A stretch of 64,000 bases of DNA from Urbifossiella limnaea (GTDB lineage Bacteria; Planctomycetota; Planctomycetia; Gemmatales; Gemmataceae), in assembly GCF_007747215.1 (NCBI RefSeq), contig NZ_CP036273.1, positions 3,952,322-4,016,321 on the forward strand. The letters are read 5' to 3'. The position numbers and the translations under genes were made by a program. Shown piece by piece: positions 44,874 to 57,680 of the stretch; positions within the stretch are counted from its first letter, which is position 1; every line of letters starts with the position of its first letter. The notes beneath the pieces were generated by a model, which ran no database searches, was not told the origin of the DNA, and saw only the letters and a program-made list of their open reading frames with translations.

Positions 44874-45165
44874 GGGCGACACCGATCTCACCGTCTCGTT
44901 TGCAGATGAAATCCCGTCTTTCGCATTGTGCGTCGGTCCGACACGCCACGTTGGCCAGACCGGGCGAGGTGACCGCCGCGCTCCACGATTCCCGTATCTG
45001 GGCGATATCTTGTCCGTTGCCGAACCCTGTGACGTCCGAACCGGTACCCCGATTCTCGTGCAGGTTCGGACGGACGGTTCGACCAAACGGACTCACTGCA
45101 CGTGGTATCGGCGCGGTGATTCGGTAGTCGTAGCCTGGCAATAGCCGACCCCGACCCTGAACGTT

Positions 45166-46074
45166 ATGAACCCCGAACTGCCGCACCTGGAGACGTTCGC
45201 CGAGGCCGCCGAGCGGTCGAGTTTCACCGCCGCCGCCCGCGCGCTCGGACTCACCCAGGCCGCCGTCAGCCAGCGCATCCAGGTGCTCGAGCGCGAACTC
45301 GGCGTGCCCCTGTTCCGCCGGATCGGAGGGAAGGTCGAACCGACCGACGCCGGCCGCAAGCTACACGACTACGCGCGCCGCATCCTCGACCTCCACCGAG
45401 AGGTGCGCCGGGAGGTCACTGGCAAGGAGGTGCCCGTCACCGGCAGGCTCGCCATCGCCGCCAGTTCCGTCCCCGGCGAGCACCTCCTCCCCGCCCTGCT
45501 CGCCGCCTTCGGCGCGAAACACCCGCACGTCCGGGTCCAGGCCGCGGTGAGGGACAGCGCCGCCGTGATCGGGCTGGTCGAGTCCGGCGAAGTCAGCGTG
45601 GGACTGGTCGGCCGAAAGTCCGATGGTGCGGGCCTCGCGTTTCGCCACCTCGCCGACGACCGGATGGTCGTGATCGCCCCGCCTGGCCACGGGTTCGCCA
45701 GGAAGAATCGCGTGACGCTCCGTCAGCTCGCCGCCCACCCCCTCGTGCTGCGCGAGCCCGGGTCAGGCTTGCGGCACTGCTTCGAGAAGGCGCTGGACCG
45801 GGTGGGCCGCTCGCTCTCCGACCTGCGCATCGCCCTCGAACTGGGTAGCAACGAGGCCATCAAGGAGGCCGTCCTGCGCGGGGTCGGCGTGGCCGTTCTC
45901 TCCACGCTCGCCGTCCGGAAGGACGTGGTCGCCGGGCGGCTGCTCGCGCTGGATGTCGAGGGCCTCGTCTGCGACCGCGAGCTGTTCGTGGTCACCGACC
46001 GCCGGCGGGTGCTGTCACCTCCGGCCCGGTTGTTCGTAACCCACCTCGAAGCCGTCCCCGACCTCGCGTCATAA
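45166..46074 (+). CDS. LysR-family regulator (CysB/CysL-like)
   Basis: 302 residues from ATG 45166. An HTH domain fills residues ~1-60: LETFAEAAERSSFTAAARAL, GLTQAAVSQRIQVLERELG, then RIGGKVEPTDAG. The effector-binding domain follows (GRLAIAASSVPGEHLLPALL). The effector is unknown; members of this subgroup often control sulfur or redox genes. It is the first gene of a same-strand run with a cupin, two candidate selenoproteins, DsrE-like and AhpD-like proteins and a cysteine synthase, and is the likely regulator of that group. Confidence 0.92.
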   Translation: MNPELPHLETFAEAAERSSFTAAARALGLTQAAVSQRIQVLERELGVPLFRRIGGKVEPTDAGRKLHDYARRILDLHREVRREVTGKEVPVTGRLAIAASSVPGEHLLPALLAAFGAKHPHVRVQAAVRDSAAVIGLVESGEVSVGLVGRKSDGAGLAFRHLADDRMVVIAPPGHGFARKNRVTLRQLAAHPLVLREPGSGLRHCFEKALDRVGRSLSDLRIALELGSNEAIKEAVLRGVGVAVLSTLAVRKDVVAGRLLALDVEGLVCDRELFVVTDRRRVLSPPARLFVTHLEAVPDLAS

Positions 46075-46182
46075 GCCCCGCTTATCATCCGCACGCCGAC
46101 TATCACCACCCGTCCCTCACGCCGTTCCCCGTCCGCCCCTAACGTGCCCCCGTCGCTCCTCAACGCCGACCGGGGGTCGAGC

Positions 46183-46683
46183 ATGTTCCGCTCAAGGACG
46201 CTGGCCACGCTTTCCGTCGCGGTCGCTGCGCTGTTGGTCACGCGCGGACCCGCGCCGTCGGCCGGGCACGACGACAAGAAGGAGATGGCCGCGCTCCACC
46301 GACCCGACGGCCTCAAGTGGCAGGACGGGCCGCCTTCTCTCCCACCGGGGGCCAAAATCGCCGTTCTCGAAGGCGACCCGACCAAGCCGGGGCCGTTCGT
46401 ATTCCGGGTGAAGGTGCCCGACGGCTACAAGATCCCGCCGCACACTCACCCCAAGCCGGAACGGGTCACGATCATCTCCGGCACGTTCAACCTCGGGATG
46501 GGGGACGCGTTCGACGAGAAAAAGGGGGAGGCGCTGCCCGCCGGCACCTACGGGACGTGGCCGGCCGGGATGAAGCACTACGTCTGGGTGAAAGGGGAAA
46601 CCGTCGTCCAGTTCCACGGCGACGGGCCGTGGGTGATCGAGTACGTCAACCCGGCCGACGACCCCCGCAAGGGCAAGCAGTAA
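46183..46683 (+). CDS. Exported cupin-domain protein
   Basis: 166 residues from ATG 46183; a GTG 13 codons upstream (46144) is possible but less likely. The signal peptide covers FRSRTLATLSVAVAALLVT. A single cupin domain is clear: PPHTHPKPERVTIISGTFNL (motif 1 with two His and Glu) and PAGTYGTWPAGMKHYVW (motif 2 with His). The metal is probably Mn, Fe or Cu. Exported cupins of this type have no defined substrate. It follows LysR by 108 bp and precedes a CMD-family selenoprotein candidate. Confidence 0.85.
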   Translation: MFRSRTLATLSVAVAALLVTRGPAPSAGHDDKKEMAALHRPDGLKWQDGPPSLPPGAKIAVLEGDPTKPGPFVFRVKVPDGYKIPPHTHPKPERVTIISGTFNLGMGDAFDEKKGEALPAGTYGTWPAGMKHYVWVKGETVVQFHGDGPWVIEYVNPADDPRKGKQ

Positions 46684-46771
46684 GTCGGCGCGAGCTGTGG
46701 AGTCGGTGTGGATCGAGATGCTGCCCGGTCCAGACGTGTTCCGTTCCGCGACGCACCAAGGAAGAATTGAC

Positions 46772-47332
46772 ATGCCGTGGGTTTCGACCGTGCCGGAGGA
46801 TCAGGCGACGGGGGCACTCGCCGAGGTGTACCGCAAGGCCCGTGAGCGCGCCGGCAAGGTGCCCAACATCGCGAAACTCCAGAGCCTCCGGCCCGAGACG
46901 ACGGCCCGCGGGTTCGAGCTGTACTGCCAGCTCATGGACGCGCCGACCGGTATCAGCCGGCGGGAGCGGGTGCTGATCGCCACCGTGGTGTCGAAGGTGA
47001 ACGGGTGCTTCTACTGAATGGAGTCGCACGAGAAAGACCTCCGGTCGGCGGTCGAGAGCGACGAGCAGCGGCAAGCCATTCAGAACGACTACCGCGCGGC
47101 CGGCCTGACCGCCCGCGAAGTGGTCCTGCTCGACTACGCGGTCAAGCTGACGAAGAACCCGCAGGGGGTGTCGCGGGCGGACCTGGACGCCCTGCGCGAT
47201 CTCGGCTACACGGACGAGCAGCTGGTCGATGCCGTCCAGTGCGTCGGCTACTTCAACTTCATCAACCGCGTGCTCGACGGCCTGGGCGTCGACCCGGAGC
47301 CGGGCATGCGCTACGCCGGCCCCGCCGCCTGA
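46772..47332 (+). CDS. Peroxidase-related CMD-family protein, candidate selenoprotein (Sec82)
   Basis: 186 residues from ATG 46772 if TGA at 47015-47017 is read as selenocysteine. The fold is the carboxymuconolactone decarboxylase/AhpD family, peroxidase-related branch. N-terminal half: VPEDQATGALAEVYRKARER, VPNIAKLQSLRPETT and SRRERVLIATVVSKVNGCFY, then TGA, MESHEKDLRSAV. Relatives have C-x-x-C here, so the TGA replaces the second redox cysteine and gives CxxU. The frame continues without change into a normal C-terminal half (LLDYAVKLTKNPQGVSRADL). A GGUC-loop hairpin follows the TGA. A nonsense pseudogene is the alternative; the preserved frame argues against it. Confidence 0.75.
47036..47053 (+). 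promoter_or_regulatory. Candidate bacterial SECIS hairpin for Sec82
   Basis: The 18 bases at 47036-47053 fold as GACC-U-CC-GGUC-GG-C-GGUC, a short stem with one U-C mismatch and an apical GGUC loop. The loop starts 25 nt after the TGA, inside the 16-37 nt range published for bacterial SECIS elements, and begins with the required G. The same loop sequence is found at the second candidate. Confidence 0.65.
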
Positions 47333-47385
47333 ACGGTTCGGGCCTTCGGTGACACGCTCGTCCAGACACCTACGGGCACTCCGCA

Positions 47386-47709
47386 ATGAAACTCGGCATC
47401 GTGATCTACTCGAACGACCCGGAAACCGTGTGGAATGCGTTCCGCTTCGGCGACCACTCCATCAAGCACCACGGCGACGAGGTGCGAGTATTTCTGCTCG
47501 GGCGCGGCGTGGAGGCCGAGTCGCTCGATTCCGCTGCCTTCACGGTCACCGAGCAGATGGCACAGTTTGTCGCTGCTGGGGGGACCATCCTGGCCTGCGG
47601 CACGTGCCTGAAGCTGCGCCAGGCCGGCGGAAGCGAGATGTGCCCGGTCTCCACGATGAACGACCTCCACCGCCTGGTCGCCGAGTGCGACAAGACCCTG
47701 ACATTCTGA
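47386..47709 (+). CDS. DsrE/DsrF-like sulfurtransferase-family protein
   Basis: 107 residues from ATG 47386. It fits the small DsrE family: MKLGIVIYSNDPETVWNAFR, then VRVFLLGRGVE and VTEQMAQFVAAGGTILACGT, with ACGTCLKLR placing two cysteines near residue 70 where DsrE proteins carry a persulfide. The C-terminus has a third Cys (EMCPVSTMNDL) and a fourth (AECDKTL). Members move sulfur in persulfide form. It is probably the sulfur-handling partner in the thiol cluster and lies between the CMD selenoprotein and a methyltransferase. Confidence 0.85.
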   Translation: MKLGIVIYSNDPETVWNAFRFGDHSIKHHGDEVRVFLLGRGVEAESLDSAAFTVTEQMAQFVAAGGTILACGTCLKLRQAGGSEMCPVSTMNDLHRLVAECDKTLTF

Positions 47710-47767
47710 AACCGTTCCTCGCGACCGGTGTCGACCTCGCCGCCGATCGGCCCACAGGAGACGCGAG

Positions 47768-48589
47768 ATGAGCCAGCCCGCGACCGACATCGACGCCCTG
47801 AAGGGCCGCCTCAAGGCCACCTGGATGGCGGGCGACTTCGGGCTCATCGCCAAGAGCTACGAGGCCGGGGCGGCGGAGTTCGTCCGCCGGCTCGGGTTCG
47901 CTCCCGGCAGCAGGGTTCTGGACGTCGCCTGCGGGACTGGGAACCTCGCCGTCCCCGCCGCCCGCGCCGGGGCCGTTGTCACCGGGGTGGACATCGCCAC
48001 CAACCTGCTGGAGCAGGCCCGGTCGCGGGCCGCGGCGGAGGGGCTCACCGCCCGGTTCGACGAGGGGGACGCGGAGAAACTGTCGTACCCGGACGCGAGC
48101 TTCGACGCGGTTATCAGCATGTTCGGGGTGATCTTCGCGCCACGCCCGGAACTGGCAGCCGCCGAGTTGCTTCGCGTCTGCCGGCCCGGAGGCACAATCG
48201 CGCTCGCGAACTGGACGCCCGGCGGGTTCATCGGACAGGTGTTCAAGACGATCGCCGGCCATGTTTCGCCCCCGGCCGGTATGCCCTCACCACTTCGGTG
48301 GGGGGACGAGGCCACGGTACGGGAGCGGCTGGGAGCCGGAACGGAACAGTCCTTGACGAAGCGGATGATCCGGTTCGAGTTCCCGCTCACCCCCACTGAG
48401 GTGGTGGAGTTCTGGCGGGTGTACTACGGCCCCACGTGCCGGGCGTTCGAGGCGCTCTCGGGCGAGCCCGGGAAGCAGGCCGCGCTCCGCGCCGACCTCG
48501 AGCAGCTCTGGACGGGCCACAACCAGGCGTCTCCCGGCGCGACGCGCGTCGAGTCGGAATACCTGGAAGTAATCGCCACCAAGACCTGA
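47768..48589 (+). CDS. Class I SAM-dependent methyltransferase (UbiE/Coq5-like)
   Basis: 273 residues from ATG 47768 with GGAGACG upstream. The SAM-binding motifs are VLDVACGTGNLAVPAARAG (motif I, ~residues 56-75) and GVDIATNLLEQAR. Post-I and motif II regions (DEGDAEKLSYPDASFDAVIS and RVCRPGGTIALANWTPGG) follow. The substrate is unknown. In this setting of thiol, selenol and metal chemistry, a methyl acceptor such as arsenite, selenide or a thiol is possible, but the three-cysteine pattern of ArsM is not evident. Confidence 0.88.
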   Translation: MSQPATDIDALKGRLKATWMAGDFGLIAKSYEAGAAEFVRRLGFAPGSRVLDVACGTGNLAVPAARAGAVVTGVDIATNLLEQARSRAAAEGLTARFDEGDAEKLSYPDASFDAVISMFGVIFAPRPELAAAELLRVCRPGGTIALANWTPGGFIGQVFKTIAGHVSPPAGMPSPLRWGDEATVRERLGAGTEQSLTKRMIRFEFPLTPTEVVEFWRVYYGPTCRAFEALSGEPGKQAALRADLEQLWTGHNQASPGATRVESEYLEVIATKT

Positions 48590-48688
48590 GCGCGGTGGCC
48601 GGAGCGGGCGGTACACGCGGTCCGCGGGTCGTCCCACGCGGACCGCGTCCGAAACCGAGGGACCGACGACAAGCACGGAGAGAGCGAC

Positions 48689-49354
48689 ATGCCTTTGCTG
48701 AGCGGAATTCGTGTGGCGGCGGTGGGCGCGGCCCTCGCGGGACTCGTCTGGACGGCCGCGGCCGACGACACGGAGGGGGCCGCCGACCGGACCTCGGCGA
48801 ACGGCGTCAAGGTCCCGCCGGGGGCGAGTGTGCGCGCCTACCAGGTGTGCTGATACGACACGGCGAACGCCGTGCTGGCTGGTCAGCCAGGAGTGATCGA
48901 CGTCGTGAAGCTGGTCCAGAAGACGCCGCTCAAGGAGTGGGTGACGGTCTACTTCGACGGGACGAAGACGACGCCGGAGAAGGTGCTCAAACACCTCCGC
49001 GAGAAAGAGTCGCCGGAGGCCGCCATGGTACAGCCGGTGACGGCGGACAAGTCGGGTGTGAAGGTGGTCGTCGACAATCCGGTCGCGGCCCCGGGCGACT
49101 TGGTCAGGGTGTCGGTCCGGCTCGCTGACGGGAGCACGGGGTCCGCGAGGGTGGTCCTCCCGAAGGGATGGCGCGTGCACCGCGGGCCGAAGGCGGATGC
49201 CGGAGCACCCCGCTTCGACATCCAAGTCCCCGGGATCGAAGCGGCGGGGAAGCACGAGGGCTCGGTCGTCGTGAGGCGGGGCACGCCGGAGGCCGATGTC
49301 AGGATTCCGTTTGCCGTCGAGCTCGTCCCGCGGGTCGAGCCGAAGGGGAAGTAA
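48689..49354 (+). CDS. Exported HMA-like protein, candidate selenoprotein (Sec55)
   Basis: 221 residues from ATG 48689 (SD GGAGAGA) when TGA 48851-48853 is read as selenocysteine. A signal peptide covers residues 1-30 (VAAVGAALAGLVWTAAA). Then VRAYQVC-U-YDTANAVLAGQPGV leads into an HMA-like beta-alpha-beta unit ending EWVTVYFDGTKTTPEKVLKH. From U to GV there are 12 residues, exactly as from the second metal Cys of MerP to its GV. So Sec falls at the metal-binding position next to Cys54; the usual first Cys is replaced by Gln. A ~110-residue beta domain follows. A perfect GGUC hairpin lies downstream of the TGA. Confidence 0.78.
48875..48890 (+). promoter_or_regulatory. Candidate bacterial SECIS hairpin for Sec55
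   Basis: A perfect 6-bp stem CTGGCT/AGCCAG (48875-48880 with 48885-48890) closes a GGUC loop. The loop starts 27 nt after the TGA, within the published 16-37 nt window. GGUC is also the core of the E. coli fdhF SECIS loop. It lies inside the coding sequence, as bacterial SECIS elements must. Confidence 0.75.
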
Positions 49355-49462
49355 GAGCAGCCGGTCGAGAGCAGCTGACGCGGCCCCCCACGACTCGGCA
49401 ACGGGTCGTGGGGGGCCGTCCGTTCTGACGCCGCCCGCCCCGCCACTCGCGAGGACCTGAGT

Positions 49463-49975
49463 ATGCCACTCCTGCCGCCGCTCAGTGCCACGGAAGCCGG
49501 TGAGGCGCAAGGCCCGCTCGAGTCCCTTCGGGAGAAGCTCGGTCAGGTGCCGAACATGTACCGCACCTTCGCCCACGCCCCGCTCGTCCTCGACGCCGCC
49601 GTCTCGATGGCCAAGGCCGTCCGGACCGTACTCGACGCGAAGACCCGCGAGCTCGCATACCTGAAAGTGGTTGAGATCACCGACTGCCACGTCTGCCGGC
49701 ACTACCACGTCGAGCACGGCCGCCGGGCTGGGCTGACCGACGAACAGATCCGTGACCTGCTCCCCTTCGAGGAGAGCGCGGCCTACACCGGGGGCCAGAA
49801 GGACGTGCTCCGGTTCACGGAGCAATGGACGCTTACCGGCCGGGTGGCCGACGACGTGCTGGCCCGGCTCCGGGCCGCGTTCACGCCCGGGCAGCTCGTG
49901 ACGCTCGCCGCGACGGTGGCACAGGCAAACCTCACGTGCCGGTTCAACAACGTCTTCGGGGTCGAGCTTCCGTGA
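49463..49975 (+). CDS. AhpD/CMD-family protein with CHVC redox motif
   Basis: 170 residues from ATG 49463. The AhpD-like core is LREKLGQVPNMYRTFAHAPL, then TRELAYLKVVEITDCHVCRH, YHVEHGRRAGLTDEQI. The pair CHVC and the downstream His match the redox site of AhpD-like proteins, which reduce peroxiredoxins or other thiol partners. Here both positions are Cys, unlike the selenoprotein candidate at 46772 in the same cluster. It follows the HMA-like selenoprotein by 108 bp and precedes the cysteine synthase by 30 bp. Confidence 0.9.
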   Translation: MPLLPPLSATEAGEAQGPLESLREKLGQVPNMYRTFAHAPLVLDAAVSMAKAVRTVLDAKTRELAYLKVVEITDCHVCRHYHVEHGRRAGLTDEQIRDLLPFEESAAYTGGQKDVLRFTEQWTLTGRVADDVLARLRAAFTPGQLVTLAATVAQANLTCRFNNVFGVELP

Positions 49976-50005
49976 CGCCTTCCGAACCCACCAAGTAGAT
50001 GCCGT

Positions 50006-50968
50006 ATGGGCAGTACCACCATTCTTGACCGCATCGGGAACACGCCGCTCGTTCGACTGAACCGGGTCGCCTCCGGTTGCCCGGTCCCGGTGTACGGGAA
50101 GTGCGAGTTCCTCAACCCGGGCGGGAGCGGCAAGGACCGGATCGCCAAGGCAATCGTGGACGATGCCGAGCGCCGCGGCGTACTGCGGTCCGGGATGACA
50201 CTGATCGAAGCGACGGCCGGGAACACCGGCATCGGGCTCGCGCTCGTCGCCGCCGTCCGGGGCTACCGGCTCGTGTGCGTGATGCCCGAGAAGATGTCGG
50301 AGGACAAGCGGGCCGCCCTCCGTGCCGCGGGCGCAGAGGTCGTCGTCACGCCGAACGCGCCGCCCCACGACCCGCAGAACTTCCAGCAGGCAGCCCGCCG
50401 GCTCGCGGCCGAGCGGGGTTGGTTTTTGACCGACCAGTTCGCGCACCCGGCCAATCCGAGGGTCCATGAGGAGACGACCGGGCCAGAGATCCTGGAGCAG
50501 TGCGGCGGCCGCGTCGGCGCGTTCGTCTGCGGGGTCGGCACCGGCGGCACGATCACCGGCGTCGGGCGCTACCTCCGGGCGCGGGCTCCCGGGGCGAGTG
50601 TGATCCTCGCCGACCCGGTCGGCTCCCGGCTCGCCCACCTGGTGAACCCAGCGCACCCGGATCACGACGCGGCCTACGCCGTGGAGGGCATCGGTGGAAG
50701 CGTCGCGCCGCCCGTCCTCGACTTCGCGGTCATCGACATCGCCGAGCGAGTGTCGGACGACGAGTCGTTCGCCATGACTGGCCGGCTCATCCGGGAGGAG
50801 GGCCTGCTCGTCGGCGGCTCGTCGGGAACGGCAGTTGCGGCTGCTCTGCGGATCGCGGCCAGGAGCCAGCACAGCGACCCGATCGTCGTTCTTCTCGCCG
50901 ACTCGTGGGACCGCTACCTCTCGCGAGCTTGGATACGCCAGGGCACGGCGAGTCTCGAAAGTGAGTGA
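50006..50968 (+). CDS. PLP-dependent cysteine synthase family protein
   Basis: 320 residues from ATG 50006. Fold-type II PLP enzyme: ILDRIGNTPLVRLNRVA, then LNPGGSGKDRIAKAIV with the PLP lysine in SGKDR, the substrate loop ATAGNTGIGLALVA, the phosphate-binding GVGTGGTITGVGRYL and a late GGSSGTAVAAAL. These fit CysK/CysM/CBS; a normal cysteine synthase is the first choice. It ends the thiol cluster and could supply cysteine or act on a selenium or homocysteine analogue. 479 bp of non-coding DNA follows. Confidence 0.92.
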   Translation: MGSTTILDRIGNTPLVRLNRVASGCPVPVYGKCEFLNPGGSGKDRIAKAIVDDAERRGVLRSGMTLIEATAGNTGIGLALVAAVRGYRLVCVMPEKMSEDKRAALRAAGAEVVVTPNAPPHDPQNFQQAARRLAAERGWFLTDQFAHPANPRVHEETTGPEILEQCGGRVGAFVCGVGTGGTITGVGRYLRARAPGASVILADPVGSRLAHLVNPAHPDHDAAYAVEGIGGSVAPPVLDFAVIDIAERVSDDESFAMTGRLIREEGLLVGGSSGTAVAAALRIAARSQHSDPIVVLLADSWDRYLSRAWIRQGTASLESE

Positions 50969-54206: not shown

Positions 54207-57203
54207 TCATCCTTCTCTGGACTCACGTCCTTGACGGGCTGCCCTCTCGAGCTTCCCCCGCCATCGGTTCCGTGAGCCCCGCAGCCGTTCGGACAGCTTC
54301 TCTGGGGAGATGGCCCCGTCGAACCCGTTCTCCCGGGCGGTGGAGAGGATGGTCTGGTGGACGGCCTCCAGCCGGTTCTCGACGGCCGGTCCGCAGGCTG
54401 CCGCCCATCCGCAGAGGATGGACCTGGCCTGCGTCCCCGGGTCGTCCGCCCGGTGGGCGTCCTGGAGAGCCGCCGCCAGGTCCGTCCAGGCGTCGTCCGG
54501 GATGTCCGGGACGACCTTCCTGTCACGAACCTGGAGGGTGAACCCCAGGAGTTCCACGGGTCGGACACGGAGGTCGGTCGGTGTAGACGGTCCGGCCGTC
54601 GTCCCCTTGAGGTCGAGGCCGACCTGTCCGAGGAGTTGGCGGACCAACCCGAGCGCCTCCACGCCGTCGGTCTCGCTCCGGACCAGGTACGCGACGTTGT
54701 CGGCGTATCTGGTCCAGAACGGGATGAGTGCCCCCTCCCGGTCGACGGCGAGGTCGTGCCGGGGGTGCAGGTGGGTGTTCAACAACAGGGGCGACAGCGG
54801 ACACCCCTGGGTGATGCCGACTCCCTCCTTTCGGTGGTGGCGAGGGTCGCGACCCCGGACGATCGCCTCGACCAGGTTGAGTAACGGGGCGGGGTCGTAG
54901 TTCTTGGGCAGCGCGGTGGCGAGCATCGCCTCGATGTCCGCCAGCAGCAGGTCGTGGCAGACGCTCGGGAACGCCTGCTTCACGTCGTCGTCCACGATGT
55001 TGGTGATGCCGGTGTAGTCGACGTACGCCTTCAGGGCGGCGAGCGCGTCCCAGTGGTCGCGGCGGAGGTCCGGCGGCGCCGCCGACCCGGCCGACCGGAA
55101 CCCGTACGAGCCGCCCAGGAAGTGCGGGTCGAGGTGCGGGGCCAGCGCGCGGTTCAGGGCGCCGGCCAGCACCCGGTCCAGGACCGAGCCCACCTCGATG
55201 GGGCGGAACCTGCCGTCGGGCTTCGGGACCTTGACGAGACGGGTCGGCTCGGGCCGGTAGCCGCCGTCGAGCACCCGCACTGACAGGCCGCGGAGGTGGC
55301 CGACCCACTCGCGCGGGGACAGGTCGTACAGCCCGATGCCGTCCTCGCCCGCGCCCCACCCGGCGCCGGAGCCCGTCATGTCGAGCAGCACCGCGTACAG
55401 GTTGTCGGTGCCGACGATCTCGTCGACCAGCGGCAGGTAGCCGTTGCGTCCCTCGAGCACCCTCCGCGCCTCGTTCTTGGGGCGCAAGCGGGAGTGCCGC
55501 GAATAGCCCGAGAGCCGGTTCGGCGGCAGGCGACGCGGCCGGCCGGTCGGTGGCGTCAGTTGTGCCGTTGACGGTTGGAGCAGCGCTACCACAATCGGTT
55601 CCGCCTGCGCGGTGGTGTCGTCGGCGTCGGCGTCGGCGTCGGTGGTGGTGGAGTCGCCCCCGACCAGCTTCGTGGCCGCCAAGGTGCCCCGGATCGCGTC
55701 CCCATCAGGGTGGCGCGCCAGGTAGCGGCGGAGTTGGTCGGACCCCGCCGGCTCGGCGATCGACCGCCAGCCCAGCCGGCGGTACGCCGCCCGCCGGCTG
55801 CGGCCGTTGCGCTGCAGGCCGCGGTGGAAGCGGTCGTCGATGTCGATGAACACCAACTCCGGGGCGGTCGAGTCCGCCGAGCCGAAGTCGGCGGCGCGGG
55901 GCAAGGGGCCGGTGCCGCCGTCGGCCCGGATCACCACGTCGTACTCCCCGAGGGGGACCTCCTTGAGCCCGCCAAAGGTGCAGACGACGGCGGCCGGCTC
56001 GCCGCCGACCGGCTCGCCCCAGCCCAGTCCCGTGCGCCCGGGCGCCGGCAACGGGCAGAGTCCGCGCCCCGCCCCCGCCCAGCCGGGCAACAGCGAGAGG
56101 ACCCGGTTCCCGTGCTCGGCGTTCTCGACGACCACGGCGACGTGGTACCCGGTCTTCGCTCGTCGACCGGACGGGGGCAACCGGCGACGGAGACTCTTCG
56201 GCACCAGCCTCGTGACTGCCCGGTGGTCGCCGGTGTGTAGCGCGGCCGCGATGTCGGCGATCTGCCGGTTGCGGCCGGCGTTGGCCCAGACGCCGATGTC
56301 CTTCACCTTCCCGGGGGGTAGCCCTATTGCGAGCCGGGTTCCTCGGTACGGCACAGCTCCGTACACCACGGCGCGGTCGGTCAGGCCGTGGCGGCCGACC
56401 CGCACCTCGGCGAGGCCGTAGACGCGCATCAGCCGGTCGAGATCGGCCGGGGGCACGGCGGCGGTGTCGGCCAGCAGCCCGACCAGCCGCCCGGGGCTGG
56501 CGCACTCGACGGCGCGGAGCGCCCGCTTTTCCAGCCCCTCGAGCACGTCCAGGACGACGACGACCTCGCGCCGGGCCAGCAGCGCGTCGTCGTGCGCCAG
56601 CCCCTCGAAGGTGCTGACGGCGACGCGGGTCCGGGGGAGTTCGCGGCCGCGGGGGCCGGTGAACGTCGTCACGTCCAGCCCGGCGTCGCGGGCCAGGGCG
56701 ACGAACGCGTCGACCTGCCCCACGGTCTTGCCGACCACGGCAACCGACTTGGCGGCGAAGGCCAGCGGGATCTGCACCGCCAGCCACACCGGGTCGACGA
56801 CGCGGCGGTCGTAGCGGACGGTGAGGTACGGCTCGCGGGCGACCGCGCCGATCACCCCGGCGTCGGGGCAGAGCCCCGGGTCGAGGGCGGCGGGCGACCA
56901 CGGGGCCGGGGCGGGCATCCGGACGCGGCCTCCGCCGGCGCGGACGAACTCGGCCGCGAGGGCAGCCAGTGGGCGCGGCCCGGCCAGGCAGGGGGTGCCG
57001 GCGAGGTCGTCGGCCGGGGCGAACAGCGGCCGGGTCACCCACTTCAGGCGGACCGGCGACCCGTCCGCCGCCGCGACCACCTCGCGGGTCGTCAACAGGC
57101 TCAGCCCGGCCAGCGGCGGGGTAATCGCCGCCACAGCCCCCGCGGTGCGGACGGTTACCGTCGCCGGGGTGATGTTGCCGGTGGTGTGCCCGTGCGGCGG
57201 CAT
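54207..57203 (-). CDS. Degenerate SF2 helicase fused to reverse transcriptase (YADN)
   Basis: 998 residues from ATG 57203. Residues ~120-480 follow an SF2 helicase without its ATPase residues: AKSVAVVGKTVGQVDAFVAL, RTRVAVSTFEGL, VVVVLDVLEG (where DEAx would be), YHVAVVVENAEHGNRVLSLL, EPAAVVCTFGGLKEVPLG and YDVVIRADGG. No Walker A is visible. An acidic Asp/Thr linker (~515-535) leads to a reverse transcriptase: KPDGRFRPIEV (661-671), DDDVKQAFPSV (738-748, motif A), GITQGCPLSP (796-805, motif B) and YADN (833-836, motif C). A helical thumb-like tail follows. There is no maturase X or endonuclease domain. The second Asp of YxDD is Asn, so activity may be altered. The frame upstream is closed only by TAG, two codons before the ATG. 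Confidence 0.82.
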   Translation of the reverse strand: MPPHGHTTGNITPATVTVRTAGAVAAITPPLAGLSLLTTREVVAAADGSPVRLKWVTRPLFAPADDLAGTPCLAGPRPLAALAAEFVRAGGGRVRMPAPAPWSPAALDPGLCPDAGVIGAVAREPYLTVRYDRRVVDPVWLAVQIPLAFAAKSVAVVGKTVGQVDAFVALARDAGLDVTTFTGPRGRELPRTRVAVSTFEGLAHDDALLARREVVVVLDVLEGLEKRALRAVECASPGRLVGLLADTAAVPPADLDRLMRVYGLAEVRVGRHGLTDRAVVYGAVPYRGTRLAIGLPPGKVKDIGVWANAGRNRQIADIAAALHTGDHRAVTRLVPKSLRRRLPPSGRRAKTGYHVAVVVENAEHGNRVLSLLPGWAGAGRGLCPLPAPGRTGLGWGEPVGGEPAAVVCTFGGLKEVPLGEYDVVIRADGGTGPLPRAADFGSADSTAPELVFIDIDDRFHRGLQRNGRSRRAAYRRLGWRSIAEPAGSDQLRRYLARHPDGDAIRGTLAATKLVGGDSTTTDADADADDTTAQAEPIVVALLQPSTAQLTPPTGRPRRLPPNRLSGYSRHSRLRPKNEARRVLEGRNGYLPLVDEIVGTDNLYAVLLDMTGSGAGWGAGEDGIGLYDLSPREWVGHLRGLSVRVLDGGYRPEPTRLVKVPKPDGRFRPIEVGSVLDRVLAGALNRALAPHLDPHFLGGSYGFRSAGSAAPPDLRRDHWDALAALKAYVDYTGITNIVDDDVKQAFPSVCHDLLLADIEAMLATALPKNYDPAPLLNLVEAIVRGRDPRHHRKEGVGITQGCPLSPLLLNTHLHPRHDLAVDREGALIPFWTRYADNVAYLVRSETDGVEALGLVRQLLGQVGLDLKGTTAGPSTPTDLRVRPVELLGFTLQVRDRKVVPDIPDDAWTDLAAALQDAHRADDPGTQARSILCGWAAACGPAVENRLEAVHQTILSTARENGFDGAISPEKLSERLRGSRNRWRGKLERAARQGRESREG

Positions 57204-57209
57204 GTTCGT

Positions 57210-57680
57210 CTACGCCATCCCGTTCGTGGTGGTGAACTCGTTCGTGGTGGGGACGCCGTACACCAACTTGGTGGCGATCATGTTGCCGGTGTCGGTGGCG
57301 ATCATGTTGCCGGTGTCGGTGGCGCTCATGTTGCCGGTGTCGGTGGCGATCATGTTGCCGGTGTCGGTGGCGATCATGTTGCCGGTGTCGGTGGCGCTCA
57401 TGTTGCCGGTGTCGGTGGCGATCATGTTGCCGGTGTCGGTGGCGATCATGTTGCCGGTGTCGGTGGCGATCATGTTGCCGGTGTCGGTGGCGATCATGTT
57501 GCCGGTGTCGGTGGCGATCATGTTGCCGGTGTCGGTGGCGCTCATGTTGCCGGTGTCGGTGGCGCTCATGTTGCCGGTGTCGGTGGCGCTCATGTTGCCG
57601 GTGTCGGTGGCGCTCATGTTGCCGATGGCGGTGCCGTTCCCGTGCTCGGCCGTGAGCCCTTTGTCCGCAGACCACAGCAC
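57210..57680 (-). CDS. Repeat-encoded leader ORF in frame with the RT gene
   Basis: 156 residues if started at GTG 57680. A short start (LWSADKGLTAEHGNGTAI) leads into 15 octapeptides GNM(I/S)ATDT, then KLVYGVPTTNEFTTTNGMA and a TAG (57210-57212). The RT start codon lies two codons after this TAG in the same frame. Expression is uncertain: the start is only inferred and all three frames of the repeat are open. It could be a separate low-complexity protein, an upstream leader of the RT, or the N-terminus of the RT with an amber stop. Confidence 0.4.
   Translation of the reverse strand: MLWSADKGLTAEHGNGTAIGNMSATDTGNMSATDTGNMSATDTGNMSATDTGNMIATDTGNMIATDTGNMIATDTGNMIATDTGNMIATDTGNMSATDTGNMIATDTGNMIATDTGNMSATDTGNMIATDTGNMIATKLVYGVPTTNEFTTTNGMA
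57271..57630. repeat. 24-bp tandem repeat, 15 units
   Basis: The unit on the plus strand is GTGGCG(A/C)TCATGTTGCCGGTGTCG. Fifteen units lie head to tail with no spacers; the last ends differently (GATGGCG). Apart from that, only one position varies, A or C, in the order AACAACAAAAACCCC. On the minus strand this switches Ile (ATC) and Ser (AGC) in GNM(I/S)ATDT. No stop codon occurs in any frame. Confidence 0.95.

Follow-up and report, generated by a model that had tools for sequence, protein, structure and literature searches.

The window analysed here, a 64-kb stretch (64,000 nucleotides) of contig NZ_CP036273.1 of the planctomycete Urbifossiella limnaea, contains at positions 48,689-49,354 of the + strand a gene, termed here gene X, whose product reaches 221 amino acids when an in-frame TGA codon is read as selenocysteine (Sec). 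On the strength of the continuous frame and of two homologues, from the genomes G259 and G493, we consider it close to certain that gene X encodes a real selenoprotein. The small selenoprotein family formed by the three members is new; Sec-containing methionine sulfoxide reductases (Sec-MsrA) and Sec-containing metal-binding proteins are already known kinds. The family probably represents redox enzymes and not metal carriers.

A conserved in-frame TGA in gene X

Direct reading of the sequence places the start of gene X at an ATG at 48,689, with GGAGAGAG immediately 5', and its end at a TAA at 49,352-49,354. The frame is broken solely by a TGA at 48,851-48,853, corresponding to residue 55; a sequence-only reading of this DNA had described a single frame running from a signal peptide to the C-terminus and split by this codon, and our analysis confirmed it. 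Downstream of the TGA, at 48,875-48,890 on the + strand, lies a hairpin resembling a bacterial selenocysteine insertion sequence (bSECIS), in which a perfect 6-bp stem, CTGGCT (48,875-48,880) paired with AGCCAG (48,885-48,890), closes a GGTC loop (48,881-48,884). The stem begins after 21 nt and the loop after 27 nt (loop at +28), exactly as had been stated before, and the 6 bp, the GGTC loop and the 27-nt spacing lie within the bSECIS constraints that we used as a rule (PMC13188914). With both strands of the window counted, GGTC loops closed by a perfect 6-bp stem number two, and the TGA at 48,851-48,853 is the only one in it with such a hairpin at an allowed spacing, the chance per TGA being about 3e-4. 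An Rfam scan of positions 45,000-50,500 returned nothing relevant.

To identify relatives of gene X, 392 genomes of the phylum were scanned. The sole clear relative was found in G259, a metagenome-assembled genome (MAG) of Planctomycetota (G259:C127, L087), at 38% identity (E 8e-29) and with one TGA in frame. A search of a contig collection with the single sequence gave no match, and a profile search with the two-row alignment recovered G259 again and yielded a third member at 34% identity, in G493 (L090), a Verrucomicrobiales MAG and thus from another phylum. G493 was picked up via a pattern distant from the Sec, since this search writes Sec as Cys codons, and the profile search is blind to members without the pattern [KG]EW[VN][TV]VYF.

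In all three members the in-frame TGA occupies one identical alignment column, that of residue 55, and the coding sequence is conserved on both sides. The region around it reads AYQVCUYDTANAVLAGQPGVIDVV in gene X, SYSIWUYDVGKAALVGQPGILDVV in G259 and TFSMWUYDLGSAAVRGLDGVYSDT in G493, giving the family motif [V/I/M]-[C/W]-U-Y-D. Differences 3' of the TGA fall mostly in third codon positions, with 17, 19 and 32 differences at the three positions over 60 codons in one comparison and 21, 25 and 39 over 55 codons in the other. Homologues that end at the TGA or have unrelated residues in its place, two cases the sequence-only reading had raised against its own proposal, did not occur, as all have the TGA there and extend well beyond it. 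Hairpins within the published bSECIS constraints also follow the TGA in G259 (GGT loop at +24) and in G493 (CGTGC loop at +21).

A lack of sel genes, which would have told against the earlier reading, was not borne out either, as the host genome (7.8 Mb, one contig) has tRNA-Sec (selC) with anticodon TCA (UCA; 78 bits), selA (542.6 bits) and selB (329 bits, or 370 bits with neighbouring segments included). Both homologue genomes have a tRNA-Sec with anticodon TCA, and selB is present in G259. In G493 the tRNA-Sec gene (L104, G493:C86) adjoins apparent nusA and infB genes, named by eye from their translations.

Because two distant relatives carry a TGA at exactly the same place, UGA55 is almost certainly read as Sec, the insertion of selenium itself being what we infer, and with three independent cases neither a nonsense mutation nor a sequencing error explains the codon. 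At the level of sequence, this comparative evidence is decisive for the Sec reading. It also makes very improbable that the TGA is an ordinary stop, either in a nonsense pseudogene or between two genes with an internal restart: a GTG start is available at 48,872 in the downstream part of the frame and the hairpin energy alone is not rare, but the two homologues, at 34-38% identity, retain the TGA, the sequence to either side of it is under purifying selection, the host decodes Sec, and a product from the internal start would lose the first strand of its domain.

Some observations weigh against gene X being a selenoprotein gene. The energy of its hairpin (-9.7 kcal/mol) is ordinary for GC-rich DNA, and the hairpin taken alone is therefore weak evidence; since 25% of codon shuffles reach the same stability, the energy was discarded as evidence for Sec insertion. 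Family membership amounts to only three proteins, no direct Cys-containing orthologue was found among the collections scanned, just more distant MsrA-like domains, and a search for selB in G493, an incomplete MAG, found none.

The family is rare, its three members being what several hundred scanned genomes and the contig collection yielded. A scan of 102 genomes of the order gave no relatives, 397 genomes of the class gave gene X itself and one weak match to an NF041383-type domain, and 388 genomes on the Verrucomicrobiota side gave the known member alone. No relatives were found in IMG/VR or among plasmids, where a single chance match lay inside a relaxase.

The domain predicted to carry the selenocysteine

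The protein begins with a probable signal peptide of the Sec secretion type at residues 1-25 (MPLLSGIRVAAVGAALAGLVWTAAA; 48,689-48,763, + strand), with a basic N-terminus, a hydrophobic core and AAA before DD; these features support the signal peptide proposed earlier and suggest export. A full-length AlphaFold2 model (mean predicted local distance difference test score, pLDDT, 77.6) comprises the disordered signal peptide, with low pLDDT for residues 1-31, an N-terminal domain and an eight-stranded immunoglobulin (Ig)-like domain. Models, fold searches and profile comparison delimit the N-terminal domain as a ferredoxin-like domain of residues 47-116 (48,827-49,036, + strand) with the order beta-alpha-beta-beta-alpha-beta, in which strand 1 ends with the Sec. 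Residues 117-214 (49,037-49,330, + strand) are predicted to form an Ig-like beta-sandwich, with filamin and Ig domains as matches in VIA-align (Z 7.6-9.3). A Pfam match to DUF1581 (E 0.012) was discarded, being below the cut-off and not common to the homologues.

The fold search with the full-length model was swamped by Ig-like domains, and the N-terminal domain was therefore modelled separately (pLDDT 81.3). Its best structural matches are HMA domains, headed by 3dxs (Z 9.8, root-mean-square deviation 1.9 A over 66 residues), and MerP (1osd) superposes with Z 8.7. HMA domains and MsrA both have ferredoxin-like folds. MsrA (2iem) appears at rank 25 in the Foldseek list and is not among the matches listed from 1000 chains aligned by VIA; this absence is no argument against MsrA, as a large chain is at a disadvantage when ranked against domains of 70 residues. 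The domain combines an HMA-like fold with a sequence near the Sec that is MsrA-like.

The HMA-like fold leads to an alternative that we consider unlikely, namely that the protein is a MerP-like periplasmic selenoprotein in which Sec55, together with Cys54 in gene X, serves as ligand for a soft metal (Hg, Cu or similar), without catalysis. Besides the superposition on modelled coordinates, it is favoured by an hhalign score to an HMA alignment that exceeds that of shuffles (z 9.3), by the compact beta-alpha-beta-beta-alpha-beta unit of about 70 residues, by export as in MerP and by the position of the Sec, which has the spacing to the GV of the second metal-binding HMA Cys; exactly 12 residues separate U55 from G68-V69, as had been counted before. 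Sec metal-binding proteins are also catalogued (NF041115 with UxxU and ZntA-like proteins with UxxC; PMC13188914), but these have two ligands two residues apart, whereas the present family has one conserved Sec. No CxxC or GMxC motif is present, residues 52-55 being QVCU in gene X and SIWU or SMWU in the homologues, so that Cys54 (48,848-48,850, + strand), which adjoins the Sec, is Trp in both. The HMA alignment begins only past the Sec, none of the three members matches the Pfam HMA family (PF00403) at E <= 10, an Ig-like domain is fused to the HMA-like one, and the neighbouring genes searched included none recognisable as serving metal resistance or metal transport. Of what the sequence-only reading had proposed for this domain, the HMA-like fold stood without a Pfam HMA match, and the Cys-Sec metal-binding pair found no support as a conserved feature.

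In sequence, the segment around the Sec is closest to the second, MsrA-like domain of NF041383, the type 2 VPGUxxT family of thioredoxin-like (seleno)proteins. The member from G493 (P0003) matches positions 144-210 of the NF041383 profile with E 1.7e-5, and the gene X protein matches the same region weakly (E 0.045); over the whole protein the score reaches 24.6 bits at best, far under the cut-off of 275. This second domain of NF041383 is MsrA-like by its match to Pfam PMSR, above the cut-off in three of five members, and carries the motif FxM-x-[C/U]-[F/Y]-W with C or U at the position aligned with the Sec. Compared by hhalign, the family scored 47.2 with the NF041383 domain (shuffle mean 10.5, z 17.7), 34.2 with Sec-MsrA and 30.0 with HMA, against about 10 with shuffled columns; the Sec column falls within the alignments to the NF041383 domain and to Sec-MsrA but outside the one to HMA.

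A joint alignment places the Sec on the catalytic Cys/Sec column and Glu83 (48,935-48,937, + strand), which follows the second strand and is invariant in the family, on the column of the general-acid Glu of MsrA, Glu94 in the Neisseria meningitidis enzyme (PMC6210582); the FD(P) columns are also common. With the NF041383 domain the gene X protein shares the Cys/Sec column, the following Glu, the F-D-P motif and the spacing to G-V. Ser108 (49,010-49,012, + strand) is replaced in both homologues by a Cys in a CPKA motif before strand 4, and 18 of 20 NF041383 MsrA-like domains likewise have a Cys there. In contrast to NF041383 proteins, the gene X protein has no thioredoxin domain, reads UYD instead of U/C-F-W and ends in an Ig-like domain. 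With Sec-MsrA (GUFWG) it shares a Sec nucleophile where the first helix begins, the Glu column and the ferredoxin-like core, but it lacks GUFWG, the VGYAGG segment and the C-terminal MsrA part.

These differences bear on how far the kinship with MsrA extends, and a set of results counts against it. The fold search is headed by HMA domains and not by MsrA, the GC/UFWG motif is replaced by CUYD or WUYD, the Trp of the MsrA substrate pocket is Asp57 in the gene X protein, the VGY segment with the proton donor Tyr82 is deleted, and the region of the other proton donor, Tyr134, and the C-terminal part of MsrA are absent from the alignment. With these residues missing, the protein may not reduce methionine sulfoxide in the ordinary way. 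We accordingly rate it quite improbable that the protein is a genuine MsrA, exported and trimmed, that acts on methionine-S-sulfoxide: the Sec and Glu columns are common with MsrA and MsrA-like domains and Sec-MsrA often occurs within the phylum, but Asp replaces the Trp by which MsrA holds the methyl group of its substrate, the Tyr82 region is gone, and none of the three members matches PF01625 in Pfam.

The comparison also yielded observations on the MsrA proteins themselves. Sec-MsrA is common across the Planctomycetota, the motif GUFWGPDS being present in 19 of 20 TGA-bearing candidates (L132-L151), and its genes have a regular hairpin of the CCGGTTCGG type. Many NF041383 proteins (L107-L131, for example L110, L117 and L122) have a second in-frame TGA in the MsrA-like domain (FGMTUFW), and elsewhere in the family this Sec form alternates with a Cys form, FAMYCFW. 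For the NF041383 family, one Sec is recorded in the 2026 catalogue of prokaryotic selenoproteins (PMC13188914).

Proposed chemistry of the family

We moderately favour an MsrA-like reductase or peroxidase that is exported and depends on Sec, which would be the nucleophile, as the alignments suggest. UGA55 would be decoded by SelB and tRNA-Sec, steered by the hairpin just 3' of it, and the mature exported protein would consist of the small ferredoxin-like domain, its strand 1 ending in the Sec, followed by the Ig-like C-terminal domain. The selenolate of Sec55 would attack an oxidised substrate, presumably a sulfoxide or a peroxide, with Glu83 acting as the acid, and a thiol would then resolve the resulting selenenic acid; a mixed disulfide is a further candidate substrate. 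In the homologues this could be the Cys of CPKA; in the gene X protein, where that Cys is Ser108, Cys54 could take its place. Judging from three sequences, the resolving thiol may have been relocated between members.

Taken together, and more tentatively, we could be dealing with a new exported selenoenzyme family, in which a minimal ferredoxin-like domain between HMA and MsrA would carry an invariant catalytic pair of Sec and Glu, an Ig-like domain would replace the C-terminus of MsrA, and the resolving thiol would have moved, being the CPKA Cys in two members and a Cys beside the Sec in the third; we put this full combination at slightly below an even chance.

Genomic neighbourhood and meaning of the family

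Gene X lies 1.4 kb downstream of a second selenoprotein gene, in a run of genes all on the + strand. The run starts with a selenium metabolism-associated LysR regulator (45,166-46,074; NF040786, 265 bits, cut-off 250), followed by an exported cupin gene and by the gene for an AhpD-like, peroxidase-related selenoprotein (46,772-47,332; TIGR01926, 146.6 bits) with the motif CFYU and a TGA at 47,015-47,017. Some 30 genomes of the order keep this TGA, and the hairpin of the gene again bears a GGTC loop, at +26. The pair of LysR regulator and AhpD selenoprotein is kept in three other genomes with close orthologues of the selenoprotein, where no counterpart of gene X was found beside the pair. Between the AhpD selenoprotein gene and gene X are a DsrE-family protein with CGTC (47,386-47,709; PF02635) and a class I S-adenosylmethionine methyltransferase (47,768-48,589; PF13649). 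Gene X is followed by a CMD/AhpD-like protein with CHVC (49,463-49,975; PF02627) and a pyridoxal phosphate enzyme resembling cysteine synthase or cystathionine beta-synthase (50,006-50,968; PF00291, with TIGR01137 under its cut-off).

Directly 3' of gene X, a strong GC-rich inverted repeat spans 49,382-49,417 (GGCCCCCCACGACTC...GGGTCGTGGGGGGCC) without a T run. Farther along the window, a 998-residue protein (54,207-57,203, - strand) combines a reverse transcriptase domain (PF00078, E 4e-14) with a long N-terminal stretch that matches nothing in Pfam, and a 24-bp unit repeated 15 times in tandem (57,270-57,633) lies just upstream of the start of its gene. At the G259 locus (L087, 6488-8179, - strand), the gene directly upstream apparently encodes a gamma-glutamyltransferase, as judged by eye from the translation, a possible tie of the family to glutathione metabolism.

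The family of gene X is absent from the 119 prokaryotic selenoprotein families of the 2026 catalogue (PMC13188914), and no member passes the cut-off of any NCBIfam model. To the roughly 119 already catalogued, our findings add one more family, a rare one, whose three members standard annotation would truncate at the TGA or restart after it. The presence of Sec in all three members, together with the lack of a direct Cys orthologue among those found, suggests that the chemistry may need selenium. The family links the MsrA-like and HMA-like ferredoxin folds, and makes the choice between a metal site and a redox site testable on a small exported protein.
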